Shown here: positions 889 to 40,297 of the stretch, in pieces
How the letters are laid out: every line of letters starts with the position of its first letter
How positions within the stretch are numbered: position 1 is the first letter of the stretch
From: Nisaea sp.
GTDB taxonomy: Bacteria; Pseudomonadota; Alphaproteobacteria; Thalassobaculales; Thalassobaculaceae
Assembly (NCBI RefSeq): GCF_017640745.1
Contig: NZ_JAEPQA010000004.1
Span: 73,803-137,802, forward strand
Length of the DNA: 64,000 nt
Direction of reading: 5' to 3'
Translations under genes and position numbers: made by a program
Notes under the pieces: model-generated
Databases searched by the model: none
What the model was told of the DNA's origin: nothing
Seen by the model: the letters and a program-made list of their open reading frames with translations, nothing else

Positions 889-1062
889 GGCGCGGCGCGC
901 CTCCCTCTCCCGGTTCCCGGATGCCGTCACCACATCCGGTTTCGCTCCGGCCCATGATTTCAGATCGGGGCCGCGATGGAAAGGTGCGCGGAGGCAGCAG
1001 GTAGGCGACGGGAACCGCTTTGCCGTATAGTGTTGCCGTGCGGTCTCGGATATCGGAAAGCC

Positions 1063-1887
1063 ATGAAAGTCAACTGCCCCGAATGCTCCCAGCACTTCAG
1101 CGTGCCGGACAAGGCGATCGGCCCCAAGGGCCGCAAGCTCCGGTGCAGCAAATGCGGCCATCAATGGCACCAGATGCTGGAGGAGGAGGCGCCGAAAAAG
1201 AAGAAGAAGGCGGCGCCGAAGAAGCCGGCGAAGGAACCGGCTGCGACGGAGGTCGAGGAAAGCCCGCCGGAAGAGGAGGAGGTCGTCCCCTTCGCCCGCT
1301 TCGGCAGCGGCGAGGCCGACCCGGACGCACCGCCGGCCTTCGAGGAAGAGGACGGCGAGGACCATGAAGGCGTGTTCAGCGCGCCGCCGATCCCGCGCGG
1401 ACGGATGCCGCTCTCCGGCAAACCGAAACGCAAGCGCAAGGGCCTGATCGCGGCCGCAGCCGCAGTGGTCATCGTCGCCGGGCTCGGCACGCTGTTCGGC
1501 GCCCGCGCGGCGCTGGTCGGCGCCTGGCCGCCGGTCGACCGGCTCTACCAGAGTGTCGGTCTTGGCGTCCCTGTCATCGGCGAGGGTCTCGTGATCCAGA
1601 ATGTCGCCGCATGGCGCAAGGCGGAGGATTCCATCGAACTGCTGCTGGTGAAGGGCGAGATCCGCAATCCGACCGAGCAGCTGCAGACCGTGCCGACGCT
1701 GGCCGGAAAACTGACCGGCAGACAGGGCGATATCATGCAGGAATGGCTCTTCCAGACGGAGAACCAGGTCATCCTGCCAGGCGAGAAGACGACGTTCCAA
1801 TATGAACTGCCGCAGCCCGGCGCGGATGCCGCGGAAGTGACCGTCACCTTCTCCGCGAAATCGCTCGGCGGCGGCCTCGGCTACTGA
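1063..1887 (+). CDS. Zinc-ribbon (MJ0042-type) single-pass membrane protein, DUF3426-like
   Basis: Protein of 274 residues starting MKVNCPEC. Two CxxC pairs (Cys5/Cys8 and Cys28/Cys31) form the MJ0042 zinc ribbon, followed by a Lys/Glu/Pro-rich linker, one membrane helix at about 127-147, and a C-terminal region at about 165-274 with a DUF3426-like pattern (VKGEIRNP, PGEKTTFQYEL). Such proteins commonly sit divergent from ftsEX in Alphaproteobacteria; their function is unknown, and a cytoplasmic zinc finger anchored to the membrane is all the sequence supports. The ATG at 1063 is chosen because the zinc ribbon begins immediately; it lies 174 nt from the divergent ftsE start. An upstream in-frame start would only add a basic, non-conserved stretch. 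Confidence 0.85.
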   Translation: MKVNCPECSQHFSVPDKAIGPKGRKLRCSKCGHQWHQMLEEEAPKKKKKAAPKKPAKEPAATEVEESPPEEEEVVPFARFGSGEADPDAPPAFEEEDGEDHEGVFSAPPIPRGRMPLSGKPKRKRKGLIAAAAAVVIVAGLGTLFGARAALVGAWPPVDRLYQSVGLGVPVIGEGLVIQNVAAWRKAEDSIELLLVKGEIRNPTEQLQTVPTLAGKLTGRQGDIMQEWLFQTENQVILPGEKTTFQYELPQPGADAAEVTVTFSAKSLGGGLGY

Positions 1888-4554
1888 TCAGAAGCGCTTG
1901 AGCAGCCGCTCGATGTAGTCCAGCTCCAGCGTCGGCCGCGAGCGGTCGCCGGAGCGTTCGCGCAACTCGTCGAAGATCCGTCGGGCACGCTGGATATCGC
2001 TTTCCGCCGGGATCTCGACATCGCTGTTGTCGTTGAAGCCGTAGCCGGTGCGCCGGCGGTTCAGCGGATCGCCATCATCGTAGTCGACATCGTCGCTCTC
2101 GCTCGCCTGCGCGTTCGGGTTTTCCTGGCCCTCGCCGTTCGCCATCTGCTGCAGCGCCTCGTTCAGGGCGTCCGCCCCCTGGCGCATCTGGCTCAGCGCG
2201 TCGCCCTGAGGGCCGACCGCCTGGCCAGGCGCATTCTCTCCGAGTGCTTCGGTCGCATCGCGCATGGACTGTTCTGCCTGCCCGAAGCCTTCCGGGATCT
2301 GCCCCAGCCCCTCGCCGACCTTGCGCATGAACTCGCCGAGCTGCTTGCGCAGCCGTTCCTGCATCTCGGCAAGTTCGGCCGCGAGTTCCTCGGCCGTCAT
2401 CTCGCCGTCGCCGCCCCCCGGAGACTGGCCCGGCATCGGCTGCTGGCCGCGTTGCCCGGGCTGCTGCCCCGGTTGCTGGCCCGGACGCTGGCCGCGCTGC
2501 GCCTGATCTCCCGGACGCTGACCACGCTGGCGCTGGCCTTCCTGGAAGGTCCGGTCCATCAGGTCGCGCTGCTGCTGCGACAGCTCGTTCAGCTGCCGCA
2601 TCATTTCCTGCAGCGCCTGCTGCTGCGGCGACATCTGCTGTTGCTGCTGCATGCCCATGCGCAGGTTCTCCATCATCTGCTGGAGCTGCGAGAGCATCTG
2701 CCGCGCCGCGTCGCGGGCGCCGGTCTTCGCCATGTCGCGCATCTGGTCGAGCATCTTCATCAGATCCTCGCGGCGGAGCATCTGGTTGGGGTCGACCTGC
2801 TGGCGTTCCATCTGATCGCCGCGCTGCGCCTGCTTCATCATCTGCTCGGCCATCGCCTGCAGATACTTGTCGATCGCCTGACGCATCTCTTCCATCAGAC
2901 GCTCGATCTCCTCGTCGCTGGCGTCGCCGGCCAGCGCTTCCTGCAGCTTGCGCTCGATCTCGCGGAGATCGCGCAGCGCGGTGGAGACGTCCCCGTCCTC
3001 GATGCGGAGCGCGACGTCCCAGAGCAGCTTCTGCAATGCCGCGATCCCGTCCGCGTCCGGCGCATTGAAATAGAGCCGGCTGGCGGCGGATTTCAGGCCG
3101 AGGAAGACCACCGTGTCGTTGAAGTAATGGTGCGGCCGCGCGGCGAGGGTCAGCAGGATTTCGGAAATGTCGATCCGTTCCTCCGGCTCCGTCACCAGAC
3201 GCTTGCGCTGCTCGATCACCGCGCGGGCCACCGGGTGGGTGAAGACCCGCTCCGGCAGCGGCATATCGACAGGATCGCTGACGCCCTTCTGGCCGATATC
3301 GTCCTCGGCCTCGAGCGTGATCCGGACCTGATGGCCGGCCCAGGGATGCGGCGTCAGATCGCTGAAGCTGCGGCCGGAAATATCCTTCCGGTCGCCGGCG
3401 ACGGCGGGCATTGCGATCTCGATGGGAGCCTCGTCCGTCACAGCGCCGTCGACCAGACGGTGAATGCGGGCGCGGACCTTCGCCACGCCGTAATCGTCCA
3501 CGGCCTCGTAGCGGAGAACGAGCGCGTTGCGCTCGGATGCGGACGGAGCCTCGGGAAAAGAGACCGTAGGGGCCAGATCCGGCAACACGTTGATCTGCCA
3601 GGATGCGATCGGATCGCCGTCCTGGGTCACCGCGAGACGGGTCCCGCGCGCGATCGGCGCCTCGATCTGATGGCTTTCCGGCGCGATCGTTTCGAACGCG
3701 ATCCGCTCGGACCGGCCTTGCGAGACCCCGTCCGCGCTCTTGTCGACGGCACCGGCCTCTACCCCGTCCTCGATCACCAGGACCGGGGTCTCCGCGCCCC
3801 CGTTGACGGTCGCGAGGAAGCGGCTGCCGACCGGGATCGCCACGGTTTCGGGCTCGGGTTCCGGTCCGGCTTCGGCTTTTGCCGCGGCCGGCCGGGTCAG
3901 AAGGATCGGCGGCTTGCCGGTATAGTCCGGCGGACTGATCCAGACATCGGCGAGCGACACCGGCGCGCTGCCCGTACCGCTCAGATCCGGCAGCATCGCC
4001 GCGCGCAGCCGCTCTCCCGGATTCTGCCAGCCCGCGACCAGACCGATGATGAGAAGCAGGCCGACCACGGTGCGCAATCCGATCGGATCGGCTTCCGCGG
4101 CCTGCGGCTCGGGACTGCCGACCCGGACCCGGGCCCGGACGTCGCCCAGCCGTTTCAGATGCGCCTGCCAGAGCGCCGCTTCCGTACGCCCGCCGCCGGC
4201 GACATGATCGCTCAGGGCGGAAAGCGGCCGGTGCCGAAGCCCCGACCAGCTTTCGAGCCGGCGCAGGATGTGTTCCTCGTCGGGCCAGGAGAAGTCCTGG
4301 ATGCTCTTTCTGAGGGCAACCACGAATACCACGACGGCCAGCAGAAGCAGGGCCGCGTGCAACAGCCCGCCGGTCACTTCCGCGATGGATTGGGGGACTT
4401 CGAGCAGAGCGAGCCCGAGGAACAGCCCGATCAGGGCGAGCGGCCACCTGAAAGCGGGGAAGAACCGTTCCCAGGCCATAATGATACCGGTCACCCAGAG
4501 CTTGGGGCGGTAGGGAAGAAACGTCCGGGCACCGTCACGCATGCAAAGACCCAT
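1888..4554 (-). CDS. TIGR02302 family membrane protein (DUF4175)
   Basis: Large protein of about 888 residues. The N-terminus has the family pattern WERFFPAF followed by two membrane helices (LALIGLFLGLALLEV and LLHAALLLLAVVVFVVAL), then a third helix (LRTVVGLLLIIGLVAGW). A periplasmic-looking beta-rich middle follows (SPPDYTGKPPI, a common motif in this family), and then a long helical C-terminal half rich in Gln, Met and Gly (QQQQ, RPGQQPGQ) with coiled-coil character. The function is unknown. It is convergent with the zinc-ribbon gene with no intergenic space. The start is uncertain: ATG at 4554, 4542 and 4479 are all in frame and none has a strong ribosome site; the family's conserved sequence begins before 4479. 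Confidence 0.85.
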   Translation of the reverse strand: MGLCMRDGARTFLPYRPKLWVTGIIMAWERFFPAFRWPLALIGLFLGLALLEVPQSIAEVTGGLLHAALLLLAVVVFVVALRKSIQDFSWPDEEHILRRLESWSGLRHRPLSALSDHVAGGGRTEAALWQAHLKRLGDVRARVRVGSPEPQAAEADPIGLRTVVGLLLIIGLVAGWQNPGERLRAAMLPDLSGTGSAPVSLADVWISPPDYTGKPPILLTRPAAAKAEAGPEPEPETVAIPVGSRFLATVNGGAETPVLVIEDGVEAGAVDKSADGVSQGRSERIAFETIAPESHQIEAPIARGTRLAVTQDGDPIASWQINVLPDLAPTVSFPEAPSASERNALVLRYEAVDDYGVAKVRARIHRLVDGAVTDEAPIEIAMPAVAGDRKDISGRSFSDLTPHPWAGHQVRITLEAEDDIGQKGVSDPVDMPLPERVFTHPVARAVIEQRKRLVTEPEERIDISEILLTLAARPHHYFNDTVVFLGLKSAASRLYFNAPDADGIAALQKLLWDVALRIEDGDVSTALRDLREIERKLQEALAGDASDEEIERLMEEMRQAIDKYLQAMAEQMMKQAQRGDQMERQQVDPNQMLRREDLMKMLDQMRDMAKTGARDAARQMLSQLQQMMENLRMGMQQQQQMSPQQQALQEMMRQLNELSQQQRDLMDRTFQEGQRQRGQRPGDQAQRGQRPGQQPGQQPGQRGQQPMPGQSPGGGDGEMTAEELAAELAEMQERLRKQLGEFMRKVGEGLGQIPEGFGQAEQSMRDATEALGENAPGQAVGPQGDALSQMRQGADALNEALQQMANGEGQENPNAQASESDDVDYDDGDPLNRRRTGYGFNDNSDVEIPAESDIQRARRIFDELRERSGDRSRPTLELDYIERLLKRF

Positions 4555-4701
4555 CCCCGGCGTTTCGCCGTGTCGTGAGGGACGGATCCCGACCGCCTCC
4601 CCCGCTGGCGTCAACCACCCGCGGCGGCACGGGAACCTGTCGATCCTCGATCTTCTCCCGGAGACGCCGGGAGGGTCAAGGGACTCGCATACGGAAGTGG
4701 G

Positions 4702-5958
4702 TCAGTCGAGCCTCTCTTCAAGGGCCAGCATCTCGTCGAAACTCTGCCGGCGGCGCACCACCCGGAAACTGTCGCCTTCGACCAGGACTTCGGGGCAGAG
4801 CGGCCGCGAATTGTAGTTCGAACTCATGACCGCCCCGTAGGCTCCGGCCGACTTAAGAACGACCAGCGAACCTTCGGAGACCGCGCCGAACTTCCGGCCG
4901 CGTGCCAGGTAATCGCCGCTCTCGCAAATCGGGCCGACAATGTCGACAAGCCCGGACTCACCCGCTGCCGGACTTTCCTCGACGGTGACAATTTCGTGAT
5001 GGGCCTCGTAGAGGGTCGGGCGGATCAGATCGTTCATCGCGCCGTCGACAATTACGAACCGGCGTTCGGCACCGTGCTTCACGAACAGCACGCGGGTCAG
5101 GAAGTAGCCTTCGTTACCGACCAGATAGCGGCCCGGCTCGATCGAGAGGCGGCAATCGAGGTCGGCGACCGTGTCCTTCACGATCTCCGCGTAGTCGGCA
5201 AGGTCCGGCGGCGCGCTGCCATCGTAGGAAACGCCGATGCCACCGCCGAGATCGAGATGGTCGACGACGTGGCCAGCCTGACGCAACGAGAGCGTCGCGC
5301 CGCGCAGCCGCTCGTAGGCGGCGCGGTAGGGCGTGACGTCCATCAGCTGCGAGCCGATATGGACCGACATGCTCCTGAGCGAGACGTTCTTCAGCGTCAC
5401 CGCCAGCTCGAACATCTCCGACGCCCGCGCGATGTCGATGCCGAACTTGTTCTCCTTGCGGCCGGTCGTGATCTTGGCATGGGTCTTGGCATCGACATCC
5501 GGATTGACCCGGATCGCCGCCGGCGCCACGACGCCCTTCGAGGCGGCGACATCGTTCAGCAAGCGCAGCTCGGGTTCGGATTCCACGTTGAACTGGTGGA
5601 TGCCCGACTCCAGCGCGAAAGCCATCTCCTCGGCCGTCTTGCCGACGCCGGCAAAGACCACTTTCGATCCCGGAACGCCCGCGCGCAGGCTGCGCGCCAG
5701 CTCGCCGCCGGAGACCACGTCCATCCCGGCGCCGAGATCGCCGAACAGCTTGATCACCGAGAGGTTGGAGTTCGCCTTGATGGCGTAATAGATCGAGACC
5801 GGCAGCCCTTGGAGGGCGGCTTCGAGCGCACGGTAGCGCGCGGTCATTCCGGTTGCGGAATAGACATAGACCGGCGTGCCGACCTCTTCGGCGATGCGTG
5901 CGAACGGGACCTGTTCGACATGCAGCGCGCCGTCCTGATAGGAGACTTGCTCACTCAT
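4702..5958 (-). CDS. lysA: Diaminopimelate decarboxylase
   Basis: PLP-dependent fold-III decarboxylase of 418 residues that converts meso-diaminopimelate to L-lysine, the last step of lysine synthesis. The PLP lysine is Lys61 in YYAIKANSN, the phosphate-binding glycine loop is LGGGIGVSY, and the active-site Cys345 lies in GPICESGDYLARGR. The C-terminal AGAYGAVMSSNYNSRP is typical of the family. Length is normal. It lies downstream of the LptM-like lipoprotein and argH on the same strand with a 20-nt gap, so argH-lptM-lysA probably form one transcript, an order frequent in Alphaproteobacteria. Confidence 0.97.
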   Translation of the reverse strand: MSEQVSYQDGALHVEQVPFARIAEEVGTPVYVYSATGMTARYRALEAALQGLPVSIYYAIKANSNLSVIKLFGDLGAGMDVVSGGELARSLRAGVPGSKVVFAGVGKTAEEMAFALESGIHQFNVESEPELRLLNDVAASKGVVAPAAIRVNPDVDAKTHAKITTGRKENKFGIDIARASEMFELAVTLKNVSLRSMSVHIGSQLMDVTPYRAAYERLRGATLSLRQAGHVVDHLDLGGGIGVSYDGSAPPDLADYAEIVKDTVADLDCRLSIEPGRYLVGNEGYFLTRVLFVKHGAERRFVIVDGAMNDLIRPTLYEAHHEIVTVEESPAAGESGLVDIVGPICESGDYLARGRKFGAVSEGSLVVLKSAGAYGAVMSSNYNSRPLCPEVLVEGDSFRVVRRRQSFDEMLALEERLD

Positions 5959-33928: not shown

Positions 33929-34996
33929 TCAGCCGCTCTTCTCTGCCGGCTTGGTCGCCGTTTCCAGCGTGTGGCGCAGCCGTTCGGTGCGGCTCGCCGA
34001 CAGCCGGTAGGCCCACTGCGACAGACGCTCCTTGTGCGCCTCGGCAAAGGACTTCGCTTCCTCGGTCGCATCCGGAGCGACATTGATCGAGAAATGGGTC
34101 CAGGTCTGCACGGCGCCGTCCTTGCCCGGAACCTCGGCGAAATCGACGATGACGGTCAGCCCGCTCCTTGTCTGGTAGATCGCGTTGCCGAGCGACGGCT
34201 CGAATGCCACCTCGCCCATCGCGCGGACCTCCTCGAAACCCAGCTTCGCCAGTCCGTCGGTGATCTCGTTCAGGGTGTAGAAGGTCGCGAACTCCCGGTC
34301 CTCCGGCATGTTCATCAGCTCGAACGGTTTCTCGCCCTCGCCGGTGCGGCGCACCTCAAGGACCTTGCCGTCCGGCCCTGTCAGATGAATTTCCTGGATC
34401 CGGTCGGCGCCGATGTCGATCACAGTATTGTCGGCCCAGGACGCCGCCCTCTGCACATCGTCAACCCTGCCGAGGGCAAGCCAGGACCGCGCCTCGGCCG
34501 CCGGCCGGATATAGACCATCGGCGCTCCCGTTCCGCTGGCCCGCTCCTTGCCGATCAGCACATCCGCCAGCACGTCTCCGTCACGGCCAACCATCCGGAC
34601 CCGGGTCGCCTCGGACCCGGCATCGCTGACATCGGCAACGCCGAGGCGCGCGTAACGCTCGGGATCGGCTGTCTTCGCCTCGACCAGCTTCAGTTCGGCC
34701 AGCGACAGGACGAAATCGCGGACCCGGCCCGTGTCGGCCGGATAGCCGCCCTGCTCCAGAATGCGCCAGGTTCCGTCGTCGCGGGCGACCGTGACCTGTT
34801 CCACCGCCCCGTCCCGGCTCCAGGACATCTCGATCCTGGCGATATCGGGGATGCGGTCCTCCAGACCCGGAAACGCCCGGGTGTCCTTGATCGCGGTGAC
34901 CGTCGCGTCCTGCCGGGCGAGAATGGCGGCGACGGCGGCAAGCACGACGAGGGCCGTGACGGCGGCAAGGCGTCCAAGGGTGCGCAGATTCAGCAT
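33929..34996 (-). CDS. DUF4340 domain-containing protein of the Gld-type ABC operon
   Basis: Protein of 355 residues with one N-terminal membrane helix (LAAVTALVVLAAVAAILA) and a periplasmic domain of the DUF4340 type. IARIEMSWSRDGAVEQVTVA, GYPADTGRVRDFVLSLAELK and ERYARLGVAD are recognisable family segments. DUF4340 proteins regularly close operons with Gld-like ABC exporters, as here: it begins 10 nt after the GldG gene. Its role is unknown; a substrate-handling or linking role at the outer face of the membrane is inference. It ends 3 nt from the convergent proline-racemase-like gene. Confidence 0.88.
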   Translation of the reverse strand: MLNLRTLGRLAAVTALVVLAAVAAILARQDATVTAIKDTRAFPGLEDRIPDIARIEMSWSRDGAVEQVTVARDDGTWRILEQGGYPADTGRVRDFVLSLAELKLVEAKTADPERYARLGVADVSDAGSEATRVRMVGRDGDVLADVLIGKERASGTGAPMVYIRPAAEARSWLALGRVDDVQRAASWADNTVIDIGADRIQEIHLTGPDGKVLEVRRTGEGEKPFELMNMPEDREFATFYTLNEITDGLAKLGFEEVRAMGEVAFEPSLGNAIYQTRSGLTVIVDFAEVPGKDGAVQTWTHFSINVAPDATEEAKSFAEAHKERLSQWAYRLSASRTERLRHTLETATKPAEKSG

Positions 34997-35006
34997 CGAT
35001 CCCTCC

Positions 35007-36962
35007 CTAACCGGCCTGGCCCTGGATACGGCGGCGGCGGATCACCCTCCAGAGGGCGAGCAGCAGCGCCAGGACCGTGACCAGGATCGGAACAAGGGCG
35101 ATGTTATAGAACCAGAGATCGCTCTCCAGCCGGTCCACATTCCCGCGCACCGAGCGCTGCACGGCCCGGAGTTCGCCGCGGATCCGGAGGATCTCCTGGC
35201 GGTACCGTTCGATCTCGGCACGTTCCTCGTCGGAGATGATGGCGGCCGCGCCCTCGGGCATCGCGCGGCGCAGCTCGTCGAACCGCTTCTCGGTCTCAGA
35301 AAGGGTCTTCTGCAGCCGCTCTTCCTGGGCCGCATATTCCTTCTCCGCCTCACGCTGGATACGGTCCAGCACCTCGAACGGCCGGGCGGTGGAGCCTCGC
35401 CCGCGAAGCCCGAGCAGCGAAGAACTGCCGGAGAGGGCATCGAGGGCATTCAGCACGAAATCGCCGTTGCCGGAGACCGGCACCGGCACCCGGCGGCCGA
35501 AGAACTGCTGCACCTGAACCCAGAAGCGATCCGCGAGAATATCGCTGTCCGCCACCACGATGACGTCGAGCGGCGCGGCGGACTCCATCAGCACGTTCGG
35601 GAACAGCGCCTTGTAGGCCGCGATCTCTTCCGCGCTCGGCGCCTGCTCGCCCTCGACCGGCTCCGGCTCCGGGGGGCCGTCCGGAAAGGCCGTGGTGATC
35701 TTCTCCGCCGTCAGCCGGGCAGCAAGCACGAACGCGTCCGGACCGGGGACATAGTTGCGCAGCAGGGTCTGCGGCGTGCGCATTCCCTTCACCTGCTCGG
35801 CGTCCAGTTCCATGGAGCCGAGCGATGTCGAAAACAGCGGCGTCATTTTCACCGGAGCATCGTCCGCAAGCGCGATATGGCCCGTGCTGGCGACGGCGAT
35901 GGTGTCGACGTTGGTCGTGATCGGCGAGGACTTGTCGATGTTCCCGCCGCGCAGTTCGAGCCATGCGACGTAGTCGACGGGACGCTGGCCCTGGCCCGGC
36001 TGCACCTTGCGGGCCGTCAGGCGATCGGCCGCGATCTTGCTCGGGTCGTATGCGACGCCCCAATGCTTGAACAGGATCGGCAGATCGCTCGAATCGGGGG
36101 CGCTGCGCCCGAAGAACTGGGCCTGCCCGCCCTCCGTTTCCGAATCCGGGTCGACCATGATCAGCGCCTTGCCGCCGCCGAGAATGAACTGGTCGATGGC
36201 GAACTGCGCCTTCGGACCAAGCTCGCCCGGATGCGCCAGCATCAGCACCGTGACGTCGTCCGGGATCTTTTCGAAATCGGCTTCGAGATAGCGGGTCTCG
36301 TAGGTCGCGCCGATCTGGTCGGCGATGATGTAGGCCGGAACCGGGGTCTGCTGCCCCATCGCGTTCATCCGGACCGTGCCGTCCATCGGCAGGCTGGTGA
36401 CGATCCCGACCACGGTCCGCTGCGTGGTCGCCAGGGCATAGATCAGTCGCGAAATGTCGTATTCGAGGAAGGGCTCGCGCTCGGGCTGCAGGAAGGGAAT
36501 CACCTCCCGGTCGTCGGTCAGGTTGGTCCCCGCAATGCCGAAGAAGACCTGCTCGCCACCCTCCTGCAGCGGGATCTGCTGCAGACCGTCGGCGACCGCC
36601 CGGTCCTCAAGTTCGGTGAAGGGCTGCGGGTCGTAGATCTCGACCTTGATCTTCCCGCCGGAGCGCGCCTCGTACTCTCCGAGCAGATCGCGCACCCGGC
36701 CGGCATAGATGCCGTAGAACGGCACGTTCCGCCCAAGCGCCTGCGAATAGTAGAACTTGAGCGTGATCGGCTCCTCGATGTTCTCGATCAGCTCCTCCGT
36801 CGCGTCGGACAGGGAATAGAGCCCCTCCTCGGTCAGGTCGAGGCGGGTCGAGGTCAGCAGGCTGGAGCTCAACACGTTGAGGCCAAGAAACAGGACCAGC
36901 AGCAGGGCAAGCGCCGTGACCGCGATGCGGCCCTGGGTGAAGAGGGTCTGGAGCGCGCGCAT
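35007..36962 (-). CDS. GldG family protein (ABC auxiliary component)
   Basis: Protein of 651 residues. An N-terminal membrane helix (VTALALLLVLFLGLNVLSSS) is followed by TRLDLTEEGLYSLSDATEEL, the start of the GldG/ABC_transp_aux domain. A long periplasmic region with a coiled coil near the end (RIQREAEKEYAAQEERLQKT) leads to a C-terminal helix (ALVPILVTVLALLLALWRVI). GldG in Bacteroidetes accompanies GldA/GldF in gliding and secretion. In Proteobacteria the same set occurs without gliding. ATG 36962 is chosen since the permease gene stops at 36964. Confidence 0.9.
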   Translation of the reverse strand: MRALQTLFTQGRIAVTALALLLVLFLGLNVLSSSLLTSTRLDLTEEGLYSLSDATEELIENIEEPITLKFYYSQALGRNVPFYGIYAGRVRDLLGEYEARSGGKIKVEIYDPQPFTELEDRAVADGLQQIPLQEGGEQVFFGIAGTNLTDDREVIPFLQPEREPFLEYDISRLIYALATTQRTVVGIVTSLPMDGTVRMNAMGQQTPVPAYIIADQIGATYETRYLEADFEKIPDDVTVLMLAHPGELGPKAQFAIDQFILGGGKALIMVDPDSETEGGQAQFFGRSAPDSSDLPILFKHWGVAYDPSKIAADRLTARKVQPGQGQRPVDYVAWLELRGGNIDKSSPITTNVDTIAVASTGHIALADDAPVKMTPLFSTSLGSMELDAEQVKGMRTPQTLLRNYVPGPDAFVLAARLTAEKITTAFPDGPPEPEPVEGEQAPSAEEIAAYKALFPNVLMESAAPLDVIVVADSDILADRFWVQVQQFFGRRVPVPVSGNGDFVLNALDALSGSSSLLGLRGRGSTARPFEVLDRIQREAEKEYAAQEERLQKTLSETEKRFDELRRAMPEGAAAIISDEERAEIERYRQEILRIRGELRAVQRSVRGNVDRLESDLWFYNIALVPILVTVLALLLALWRVIRRRRIQGQAG

Positions 36963-36963
36963 C

Positions 36964-37698
36964 CTATTCCGCCTTCTTCCAGTCGATGACGAACGCATTG
37001 GCGATCAGCGCGATGACGATCGCCGAGCCGAAGAAGATCACGTCGCGCAGATCGATCACGCCGCGCTGGATCGCGTCGAAATGGGTCAGGAAACCGAAAT
37101 TGGCGATCGCCTCGACCAGTCCCCCCGGTGCCCAGTTCTCGAAATAGTTCAGCAGGATCGGCGAGCCCGCGACGGTGAAGAGGAAACAGACGGCCGCGGC
37201 AACGACGAAGGCGATCACCTGGTTCTTTGTCATCGCCGAGATCAGGGATCCGATGGCGAGATAGGCGCCGGCCATCAGATAGCTTCCGATATAGGAGGCG
37301 AGGATCACGCCGTTATCCGGATTTCCGAGATAGTTCACGCTGATCCAGAACGGGCAGGTCAATGCCAGGGCGACACCGGTGAAGGCCCAGGCGGCGAGGA
37401 ACTTGCCCACCACCGCCTCGAACATCGTGATCGGCAGCGTCAGGAAGAGTTCGATCGTCCCGAGCCGCCGGTCCTCCGCCCAGAGCCGCATCGAGAGCGC
37501 CGGAACGAGGAAGAGGTAGAGCCAGGGGTGGAACCCGAAGAACGGCTGGAGATCCGCCTGGTCGCGGGCAAGGAAACCGCCGACGAAGAACGTCAGCGTG
37601 CCCGCCATGACGAGGAAGATCACGATGAAGATATAGGCGAGCGGCGTCGCGAAATAGGCGCCGAACTCGCGCCGGAAGATCAGGCCGATGTTACGCAT
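36964..37698 (-). CDS. ABC transporter permease, GldF-like
   Basis: Inner-membrane protein of 244 residues with six helices of the ABC-2 type. It begins MRNIGLIFRREFGAYFATPL and contains AEDRRLGTIELFLTLPITMF, a conserved cytoplasmic coupling segment of the GldF/NosY group, followed by KFLAAWAFTGVALALTCPFW. It is coupled to the ATPase gene upstream by an 8-nt overlap, and the GldG gene follows. Export of a hydrophobic or cell-surface component is the usual guess for this class; the substrate is not known. Confidence 0.93.
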   Translation of the reverse strand: MRNIGLIFRREFGAYFATPLAYIFIVIFLVMAGTLTFFVGGFLARDQADLQPFFGFHPWLYLFLVPALSMRLWAEDRRLGTIELFLTLPITMFEAVVGKFLAAWAFTGVALALTCPFWISVNYLGNPDNGVILASYIGSYLMAGAYLAIGSLISAMTKNQVIAFVVAAAVCFLFTVAGSPILLNYFENWAPGGLVEAIANFGFLTHFDAIQRGVIDLRDVIFFGSAIVIALIANAFVIDWKKAE

Positions 37699-38416
37699 GG
37701 CCGGTCACCTCGCGGAAAAAGTCGTCGAGGCTGGCGGCCCCCGAGCGGGCCTTCAGCTCTTCCGGAGTGCCGTCCGCGAGCACACGGCCGCGGGCGATGA
37801 TCATGGCCCGGCTGCACACCGCGTCGACCTCTTCGAGGATATGGGTCGAGACGACGATGCATTTCTCCGCCGCCATGCTCATGATCAGGTTGCGGACTTC
37901 GTGCTTCTGGTTGGGGTCGAGCCCGTCGGTCGGTTCGTCGAGGATCAGCACCTCGGGATCGTGGACCAGCGCCTGGGCCAGACCGACCCGTCGCTTGTAG
38001 CCCTTGGAAAGCGTCTCGATCGGCTGCATCACAACCTGCGTCAGCCGGGTCTGCTCGATCACCCGTTCGACCGCGTCCTTCACCTCCCCGTCCGCCAGAC
38101 CGCGGATCCGGGCGACGAAAGAGAGGAAGGAGAGCGGGGTCATGTCCGGGTAGGCCGGCGCGCCCTCGGGCAGATAGCCGATCGCCGCCTTCACCGCCTG
38201 CGGCGCCATGCGCACGTCGTGTCCGGCGACCACAGCGGTTCCTGCGCTCGGCGCGAGAAAGCCGGAGATCATTTTCATCGTGGTCGATTTGCCAGCCCCG
38301 TTCGGGCCGAGAAAGCCGAGTACCTCGCCGCGTCCGACCTCGAACTCAAGGCCGTCGACGGCCGTGATCGGCCCGAAGCGTTTGGTTAACTTCTGGATCG
38401 ATAGTAACGCGCTCAT
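37691..38416 (-). CDS. ABC transporter ATP-binding protein, GldA-like
   Basis: ABC ATPase of 241 residues. Walker A is GFLGPNGAGKSTTMK at about 34-48; the signature region reads LSKGYKRRVGLAQALVHDPE and Walker B VLILDEPTDGLDPNQ. The LSKGYKRR form in place of LSGGQ is typical of exporters of the NatA/GldA group. It is first in the four-gene operon ATPase-permease-GldG-DUF4340 and is divergent from the cyclase gene, with a 150-bp gap that must hold both promoters. Confidence 0.93.
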   Translation of the reverse strand: MSALLSIQKLTKRFGPITAVDGLEFEVGRGEVLGFLGPNGAGKSTTMKMISGFLAPSAGTAVVAGHDVRMAPQAVKAAIGYLPEGAPAYPDMTPLSFLSFVARIRGLADGEVKDAVERVIEQTRLTQVVMQPIETLSKGYKRRVGLAQALVHDPEVLILDEPTDGLDPNQKHEVRNLIMSMAAEKCIVVSTHILEEVDAVCSRAMIIARGRVLADGTPEELKARSGAASLDDFFREVTGHA

Positions 38417-38566
38417 CTCGTGCGAACTTGGTCCCTATCTTCAGCGGCGTTTTCCCCAACCCCTGCGATGTACCTGAAATTCAGTAAGAATCAAAGAATT
38501 GGGTTTTCCCGGATTGTACCTATCTAATATTCTTTTGAGCCGACGCGGACATCTGGAGCAGCACGC

Positions 38567-40297
38567 TTGAGCGAAGAATCTTCCCGACCGCGTGGCCAGA
38601 GCGATCTGCTTGTCCGCCGGGCTCACACCGTCTCAGGTCTGATTCTCTTCGCATATGTCGCCCACCATCTGCTGAATCACAGCTTCGGCATTCTTTCGAC
38701 CGAAGCCCTGGCGGTTGTCGGGCGCGCGTTCGTCATCTTCTGGCACCATCCGGTGACGACCCTGGCACTCTACGGTGCTTTCACCGTTCATTTTCTCGGC
38801 GCACTCTATGCCGCCTACCGGCGCGACTCGCTGACGGACATGAACCAGGCGGAACTCACCCAGCTCTCCCTCGGCCTGCTGATCCCGGTCTTCCTGATCG
38901 CCCACGCCATCGGAACCCGCATCCTCGACGAGTTTTTCGACGCCGATCCATCCTACCTCTATGTCCAGCTCCTGGTCTGGAAATTCGTTCCGCATTATGC
39001 CGTCAACCAGACGGTGCTGCTGCTCGCGGCCTGGATCCATGGCTGCATAGGATTGCACCTCTGGCTCCGATACCGGCCCGGCTATCGCCGGCTGCTGCCG
39101 CTCTGGCTGGCCCTGGCGGTACTGGTCCCGACCCTTTCGCTTTCCGGCTTCGTCGCGTCGGGCATGGAAGTGCTGAGGCTCGCGGAGGAGGGGGCGTGGC
39201 TCTCGCAGGCGGTCGCCTCGTTCGAGCTTCCGCGCGGCGAGCGGGCGCAGGATGTCGTGCGGCTCGTGGAACGTGTCGAGTACGGATATTACGGCCTCGT
39301 CCTCTTCACCTTCGCCGCCCGCGCCTTCAGGCTGCATCTGGAACGGAAGCGCGAGCCGGACGTTACCCTGACCTATCACACCGGCCAGAAGGTGGGGCAC
39401 CGGGCCGGCGCGAGCATTCTGGAGACCAGCCGGGCGGCCGGGATTCCGGACGCCTCCGTTTGCGGCGGGCGCGGGCGCTGCTCGACCTGCCGGGTGCGGA
39501 TCGGCATCGGGCTGGATGCCCTGCACCCGCCCTCCGAGCTGGAGCAGCGCGTGTTGAGGCGTGTCGGTGCACCGGACAATGTCCGGCTCGCCTGCCAGAC
39601 CTTCCCGGAAGTCGATGTGGAGGTCACGCCGCTGCTGCCGCCGGCCCAGGCCAGCGTCGAGGACACCGGTGCGCGGCCGGATTATCTCGCCGGGCAGGAG
39701 CGCGACATCGTCGTGCTGTTCGCCGATATACGCGGGTTCACCAGGCTCTCGGAACAGCGTCTGCCCTACGACACGGTCTTCATCCTCAATCGTTACTTTT
39801 CCGAAATGGGCCATGCGATCGAGGAGGCGGGCGGGCGCATCGACAAGTTCATCGGCGACGGCATCATGGCGCTTTTCGGAGTCGATCGCGGCCTGGAGAC
39901 GGGCGCGCGCAACGCCATTGCAGCAGCCCGCGGCATGGCGGAGAACCTCAAACGCCTGAACGACAGTCTCGCGGCGGATCTCGGCGAACCGCTACGCATC
40001 GGCATCGGCATTCATGGCGGGCCGGCGATCGTCGGCGAACTCGGCTACCGGGCGACGCGCGGCCTCACCGCGGTCGGCGACACGGTGAACACAGCGAGCC
40101 GGCTCGAAGCCCTGACCAAGGATCACGGGGTCCAGCTGATCATCTCCGAAGCGGTGATCGAAGCGGCCGGCCTCGCACTGGAGCTTGGAGAAACCGCGGA
40201 GATATCCGCACGCGGGCGCGAGCAAAGCATCGCGGTCCGGCTTGTCGCCGACGCGTCGGCCCTTCCCCCTGCGCGTCCGGAGATGAACGCCGGATAG
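38567..40297 (+). CDS. Membrane cytochrome-b-like/[2Fe-2S]/class III adenylate cyclase fusion
   Basis: Protein of 576 residues with three parts. About 15-255: five or six membrane helices rich in His (His20, 33, 34, 38, 75, 113, 143, 158, 164) resembling the heme-b anchors of succinate:quinone oxidoreductase (RRAHTVSGLILFAYVAHHLL). About 265-360: a [2Fe-2S] ferredoxin domain with Cys299, 305, 308 and 343 (C-x5-C-x2-C-x34-C). About 375-560: a class III cyclase with Asp387 and Asp431 for metal, Lys427/Thr501 for adenine, and Asn508/Arg512 for catalysis, so class IIIb adenylate cyclase. It likely couples quinone or redox state to cAMP. The start is TTG at 38567 with TGGAG 8 nt upstream; no ATG is closer in frame. 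Confidence 0.9.
   Translation: MSEESSRPRGQSDLLVRRAHTVSGLILFAYVAHHLLNHSFGILSTEALAVVGRAFVIFWHHPVTTLALYGAFTVHFLGALYAAYRRDSLTDMNQAELTQLSLGLLIPVFLIAHAIGTRILDEFFDADPSYLYVQLLVWKFVPHYAVNQTVLLLAAWIHGCIGLHLWLRYRPGYRRLLPLWLALAVLVPTLSLSGFVASGMEVLRLAEEGAWLSQAVASFELPRGERAQDVVRLVERVEYGYYGLVLFTFAARAFRLHLERKREPDVTLTYHTGQKVGHRAGASILETSRAAGIPDASVCGGRGRCSTCRVRIGIGLDALHPPSELEQRVLRRVGAPDNVRLACQTFPEVDVEVTPLLPPAQASVEDTGARPDYLAGQERDIVVLFADIRGFTRLSEQRLPYDTVFILNRYFSEMGHAIEEAGGRIDKFIGDGIMALFGVDRGLETGARNAIAAARGMAENLKRLNDSLAADLGEPLRIGIGIHGGPAIVGELGYRATRGLTAVGDTVNTASRLEALTKDHGVQLIISEAVIEAAGLALELGETAEISARGREQSIAVRLVADASALPPARPEMNAG

Follow-up and report, generated by a model that had tools for sequence, protein, structure and literature searches.

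A CyaC-type adenylate cyclase of Nisaea sp. with a putative di-heme membrane anchor and a ferredoxin domain

How can an adenylate cyclase be informed of the redox state of the respiratory chain, and which of its cofactors would carry the message? This question is raised by a gene in a 64,000-nucleotide stretch of DNA from Nisaea sp. (contig NZ_JAEPQA010000004.1, positions 73,803 to 137,802; hereafter, the window). A first-pass annotation had read the gene (38567..40297, + strand) as an adenylate cyclase fused to a His-rich, cytochrome-b-like membrane anchor and to a [2Fe-2S] ferredoxin domain, and had proposed a direct electron path from the quinone pool or an external oxidant through the Fe-S cluster to the cyclase. 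From the analysis described below, its product is very probably a respiratory-redox-sensing class IIIb adenylate cyclase of the CyaC type, in which the signal would pass from quinone to two predicted hemes, probably through the cluster, and come out as cAMP.

Domain make-up and fold of the anchor

The open reading frame encodes 576 amino acids from a TTG start codon, and GGAG, a probable ribosome-binding site, lies 8 bases 5′ of it (38555..38558, + strand). Both the TTG and the GGAG are kept, as read in the sequence, in the congeneric relative L009 (93% identical). A six-helix membrane anchor known from predicted models (residues 1-260; 38567..39346, + strand) is followed in the same polypeptide by a [2Fe-2S] ferredoxin domain (Fer2, PF00111; residues 279-347; 39401..39607, + strand; E 7.6e-07, 29.4 bits against a cut-off of 21) and then by a class III cyclase catalytic domain (Guanylate_cyc, PF00211; residues 378-552; 39698..40222, + strand; E 1.5e-19, 70.7 bits against a cut-off of 21.9). 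No other Pfam family matches the protein at E<=0.01, and the sole further match at E<=1, TetR_C_28 at residues 200-236 (E 0.1), lies below its cut-off. The cysteines of the ferredoxin domain, C299, C305, C308 and C343, are spaced as C-x5-C-x2-C-x34-C, and the nearest NCBIfam models of the ferredoxin type, nqrF and fdx_isc, both stay far under their cut-offs. The cyclase domain carries the metal-binding Asp pair D387 and D431, Lys427 and Thr501, Asn508, and Arg512, a set which, by its pair of metal Asp, its substrate-specifying Lys and Thr, and its transition-state Asn and Arg, we assign to class IIIb of the adenylate cyclases. Thus the frame and all ten residues named in the first-pass annotation, four cysteines and six catalytic positions, proved exact, and the class IIIb cyclase domain is intact as it had stated, with the Pfam match above cut-off and every catalytic residue present.

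What kind of membrane domain is the anchor? By sequence, no known heme-anchor family of Pfam or NCBIfam exceeds its cut-off on it, and its sequence profile gave no match among solved structures in the PDB; therefore, folds were compared instead. For a full-length predicted model (pTM 0.47, with low confidence at the linker between Fer2 and cyclase, 357-374), the best 50 Foldseek matches listed were all cyclases or cyclase fusions, and thus a model of the anchor alone was built. This AlphaFold model, made with 49 sequences, has a pLDDT of 92.4 and a pTM of 0.87, and contains long helices at residues 14-42, 62-85, 94-124, 143-167, 177-206 and 225-259, the first four of which each hold one conserved histidine. 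The first six matches of VIA-align 2 to it are all cytochrome b chains of quinol:fumarate reductase or succinate:quinone reductase (QFR/SQR), namely Wolinella QFR chain C (Z 14.9, 14.8, 14.7 and 14.5), Desulfovibrio gigas QFR (13.9) and Chloroflexus SDH (12.0), to be read with the caution that predominantly helical models may score a Z of about 13-14 even where no true relative exists; the next family, cytochrome b561, reaches Z 7.1. In Foldseek the top match is again Wolinella QFR chain C, with a probability of 1.00 and a TM of about 0.52 at a poor E of 0.15, and the second is an ABC exporter (E 0.16, TM 0.24). The sequence family TIGR02046 (sdhC b558) aligns with residues 15-158 of the window protein at E 0.32 and 10.6 bits, against a curated cut-off of 96 bits, so that the protein is not a member. 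Among 15 family members compared with the same model, nine match at E<=10, the lowest E being 0.039, and in a scan of the whole genome the window anchor is its only match at E<=1 (E 0.256, 12.1 bits). The anchor is, as judged from its predicted model, fold-related to the QFR/SQR cytochrome b chains and stands outside TIGR02046. Since it falls below all heme-anchor cut-offs and has no sequence match in the PDB, the case for hemes rests on the fold and on the conservation of histidines.

Conserved ligands and the spread of the family

Twelve histidines occur in residues 1-260, which bears out the His-rich membrane region first described, and the family narrows them down to four. H34 (helix 1; 38666..38668), H75 (helix 2; 38789..38791), H113 (helix 3; 38903..38905) and H158 (helix 4; 39038..39040), all on the + strand and all predicted heme ligands, are each found in 49/49 rows of alignment A2 and belong to its ten invariant columns; A2 takes in 49 of 96 collected anchor rows. 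A smaller alignment, A1, has 15 rows, the window protein and 14 full-length relatives, with L016, L017 and the copy of G021 left out. In a set of 98 rows, made of the window protein and 97 of the 98 loci L009-L106 (the fragment L025 was dropped), the counts among rows with a residue at the column are 95/95 for H34, 96/96 for H75, 97/97 for H113, 98/98 for H158 and 90/95 for H38. It is to be noted that 80 loci of this set were found with patterns including the Cys motif, and therefore the conservation of cysteines there is partly circular. The count was repeated on 104 distinct proteins, from 105 loci plus the window, which came, except for L107 and L108, from searches without Cys-motif patterns. 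H34 is then kept in 101/102 rows with a residue (one Arg, in L156), H75 and H113 in 103/103 each, and H158 in 104/104, and C299, C305, C308 and C343 are each kept in 104/104, where about 30 rows are close relatives of one genus, so that the counts are not independent. H38 (90/102) and H164 (48/104) are partly conserved, and H20, H33, H60, H61, H143 and H257 vary in the family alignments. The idea that all histidines of the anchor are important was thus rejected; near-invariance is restricted to the four.

The catalytic positions are less uniform in the family. Gln replaces Lys at the position of K427 in 18/98 rows and His replaces Asn at that of N508 in 9/98, and all nine of the latter also carry Gln at the former. 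Judging from these substitutions, substrate or activity may differ in such rows. Several of them are labelled as Rokuibacteriota, Nitrospinota/Nitrospinae or Betaproteobacteria.

How widely is the architecture distributed? The genome of the window has 11 matches, of which one is full-length, nine cover the cyclase domain only and one the ferredoxin domain only. Within the relatives set of 41 genomes, 18 have a full-length copy, counting the genome of the window, as have all five of the genus (5/5); one further copy is split. Because these homologues are collinear over their full length, a chance origin of the architecture is excluded. The split copy, on one contig of G005 (C66; L025 and L026), lies in two pieces about 47 kb apart, corresponding to residues 14-134 and 135-569, and looks like a rearrangement or an assembly fault. 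In wider samples, 92/247 Rhizobiaceae genomes match at E<=1e-60, and all 33 of 33 Sinorhizobium genomes do, with the match broken in two in one genome and partial in another. In samples of the class, the full alignment is matched by 80/289 genomes at E<=1e-60 and the anchor by 112/385 at E<=1e-15, these matches including a few partial or cyclase-less genes. From the contig collection, 80 of 583 confirmed loci were kept, and none of the 80 is from S. meliloti. Two apparent new architectures were rejected: in L195 (G381) the frame is broken and the cyclase continues in another frame, and in L196 (G647) the sequence after the anchor frame looks, by eye, like an out-of-frame cyclase. The short matches in G587, G517 and G531 lie at contig ends. 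The plasmid collection gave matches in 164/72,556 records at E<=1e-50. One such record, from S. meliloti Ak57, carries cyaC (L190, CP090106.1, 2718607-2732268); by its title it is plasmid pSymB, but it is 3.72 Mb long and may be a mislabelled chromosome.

From quinone to cAMP

What would such a protein sense? As far as the available text of a 2023 paper in BMC Microbiology goes (PMC10463352, citing Wissig et al. 2019), Sinorhizobium meliloti CyaC is a quinone-responsive cyclase with di-heme-B and a [2Fe-2S] cluster, its six-helix domain binds two hemes B, ubiquinone can oxidise or reduce the heme and thereby affect activity, and oxidation by quinone can activate the enzyme. The di-heme or quinone regulation of CyaC is repeated in the portions at hand of two further papers (PMC9552081; PMC13259868). 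By analogy, the window protein most likely works in the same way, so that oxidation by quinone would alter cAMP synthesis via the hemes. Its anchor would hold two b-type hemes between His34, His75, His113 and His158, and these would exchange electrons with the quinone pool; the redox state of the hemes would probably be relayed by the [2Fe-2S] cluster situated between membrane and cyclase; and the arrangement of the cyclase homodimer would then shift and change the rate of cAMP synthesis. If the likeness to S. meliloti CyaC extends to the direction of the response, an oxidised quinone pool would activate the enzyme. For the window protein we infer cofactor binding, quinone exchange, cluster relay and response direction, and we place the cluster in the signal path because of its position and conservation.

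Of the mechanism first proposed for this gene, three elements are thus supported by the fold, by conservation and by a quinone-responsive homologue: the di-heme-b-like anchor, the [2Fe-2S] domain and the switch from redox state to cAMP. The electron path through the Fe-S cluster to the cyclase found no support. The cyclase domain itself is no electron acceptor, and in the CyaC literature, in the parts available, no proof was found of the cluster acting as a relay. Nor was anything found to suggest that the natural input is an external oxidant.

Is the cluster really in the signal path? It is conceivable, though we would not bet on it, that quinone is sensed by the hemes alone and the signal passed on mechanically by the helices, with the cluster outside the path and needed for structure or assembly, for example as a check of iron or Fe-S status. 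The published redox response is ascribed to heme, and no test of the cluster was found in the available text of those papers (PMC10463352; PMC9552081). Fer2-cyclases that have no anchor also exist in L193 and L194, and therefore the cluster can serve a cyclase without hemes. The protein of L194 (1890-2900, + strand) adjoins a starch-synthase-like glycosyltransferase gene, and that of L193 (1761-3272, + strand), whose frame has the open frames of IMP dehydrogenase and GMP synthase as its immediate neighbours on either side, combines a cyclase with Fe-S domains of three kinds: two CDGSH, one Fer2 and one Rieske. Against a switch made of hemes alone, the four cysteines are as invariant as the histidines (104/104), and anchor and Fer2 stay paired in proteins that lack the cyclase, which hints at a single working unit of hemes and cluster.

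Such cyclase-less proteins, of anchor and Fer2, are found in G362 (L191; 1983-3140, + strand), G455 (L192; 1908-3047, - strand) and G764 (L225; 2-976, + strand). They were judged by the length of the open frame and then read; that of G764 came from a family search. They are rare, with two (G362 and G455) among the 112 class-sample genomes with an anchor. All keep the four histidines and four cysteines, apart from H34 of L225, which is lost to the contig end, and this retention argues for hemes and cluster as one unit. In the tree of 61 anchor-Fer2 rows, chosen from the sets of 98 rows and 104 proteins above, they form one branch (98/93), in which L192 has a long branch and a less sure placement. 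Each overlaps an MscS-like frame, at 3119-5068 (+ strand, 650 codons) in L191, 1-1947 (- strand, at least 649 codons, running to the locus end) in L192 and 973-2940 (+ strand, 655 codons) in L225, and these frames match MS_channel_2nd at E 6.2e-12, 3.2e-16 and 2.4e-12, respectively. The first possible start of the MscS-like frame overlaps the stop of the anchor-Fer2 frame as GTGA in L191, ATGA in L192 and GTGA in L225, and later starts are also possible. Could the pair be a portable redox antenna? We hold as a tentative idea that quinol electrons pass through two hemes to the [2Fe-2S] cluster and that the cluster's state rather than the heme's gates the output, be it a cyclase or an MscS-like channel. 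The overlapping MscS-like channel is possibly redox-gated, and if the antenna were real, the cyclase-less branch would have a channel gated by the respiratory redox state. A literature search over titles and abstract openings, which leaves absence unproven, gave among the papers listed no account of an MscS channel linked to heme and ferredoxin; this branch beside an MscS-like gene is a more novel observation than the cyclase of the window.

The anchor may also be asked whether it holds heme at all. It could be a heme-free six-helix receptor or a mere membrane tether with histidines conserved for structure, as would fit the absence of any heme-anchor sequence family above cut-off; to our knowledge, the other six-helix anchors of cyclases are without heme. 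These fall into separate clusters in the available text of PMC4821796. We regard a heme-free anchor as quite improbable in view of the confinement of near-invariance to four histidines, one in each of helices 1-4, the match to the QFR/SQR fold, and the heme B reported in the S. meliloti homologue, as far as that paper was available (PMC10463352). It is hardly more credible that the hemes sense a gas (O2, NO or CO) instead of the quinone pool. Heme proteins often sense gases, and yet two histidines per heme would make it bis-His hexacoordinate, a state poor in gas binding; the published homologue, S. meliloti CyaC, responds to quinones according to the available text (PMC10463352). Quinone sensing through two hemes, with a probable relay by the cluster, is therefore the reading that we prefer.

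Comparison with known systems

The helices of the anchor are arranged like those of the QFR/SQR cytochrome b anchors of Wolinella, D. gigas and Chloroflexus (Z 12-15), which presumably hold two hemes b by four His ligands, one per helix. However, identity over the structural alignment is just 14-18%, and the window anchor is fused to signalling domains, whereas QFR/SQR anchors work with flavoprotein and Fe-S subunits.

A far closer relative is S. meliloti CyaC (SMc01818), compared here through the cyaC product of strain Ak57. In a single pairwise comparison (E 2e-131), 223 of 560 aligned positions are identical (40%) over residues 17-571 of the window protein, and the domain order, both Pfam domains, the four heme histidines, the four Fe-S cysteines and the class IIIb catalytic residues are common to the two. 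Nevertheless, they belong to separate subgroups: in the anchor-Fer2 tree, the window protein falls within a set of eight rows from its own family only (97/89), and S. meliloti CyaC stands elsewhere in the family.

The surroundings differ too. The window gene is flanked by a GldA-like ABC ATPase gene and an AraC-type regulator gene, both on the minus strand, with an MFS transporter gene beyond the latter; the ATPase belongs to a divergent GldA/GldF/GldG-like ABC transporter set with a DUF4340 protein (33929-38416, - strand). Membership of an operon was rejected, as both flanking genes lie on the opposite strand. Pfam gave no TetR gene among the eight neighbours scanned, whereas in S. meliloti Ak57 two IS genes follow cyaC and the next gene is rutR, which is of the TetR type. 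This rutR, so annotated, adjoins dihydropyrimidine genes (preA, hydA), and is inferred to be the counterpart of CycR (SMc01819; PMC10463352). The closest RutR/CycR-like protein in the window's genome is 53% identical to that of Ak57 and is encoded on another contig, and domain matches for cNMP binding number nine in the genome, spread over eight open frames of which six have 161-268 codons. Thus readers of cAMP are available, yet the CyaC-CycR-Clr complex of S. meliloti cannot be assumed, and from the separation in the tree together with the differing adjacent genes, the downstream wiring may differ.

Is the architecture new, then? It is not: a 2016 eLife paper describes, in its available text, a cluster of 30 class IIIb cyclases that combine six helices with a ferredoxin domain (PMC4821796). 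The example of this cluster (1), Rhodopseudomonas palustris Q132R4, is alike in architecture and in its four spaced intramembrane histidines, as judged from the published description, and against it only further members and taxa are new here. With the properties of CyaC available in PMC10463352, the main points of the first-pass annotation were already in print, except for the electron relay through the cluster. The CyaC family is a direct link from respiration to cAMP, and it is frequent in Alphaproteobacteria, with the anchor in 112/385 sampled genomes. The window protein is a member of this CyaC-type family, whose architecture has been in print since 2016 (PMC4821796) and whose characterised member is cited to 2019 (PMC10463352), and as a clean member away from rhizobia it is useful for asking whether the family as a whole senses quinone and uses the cluster alike.
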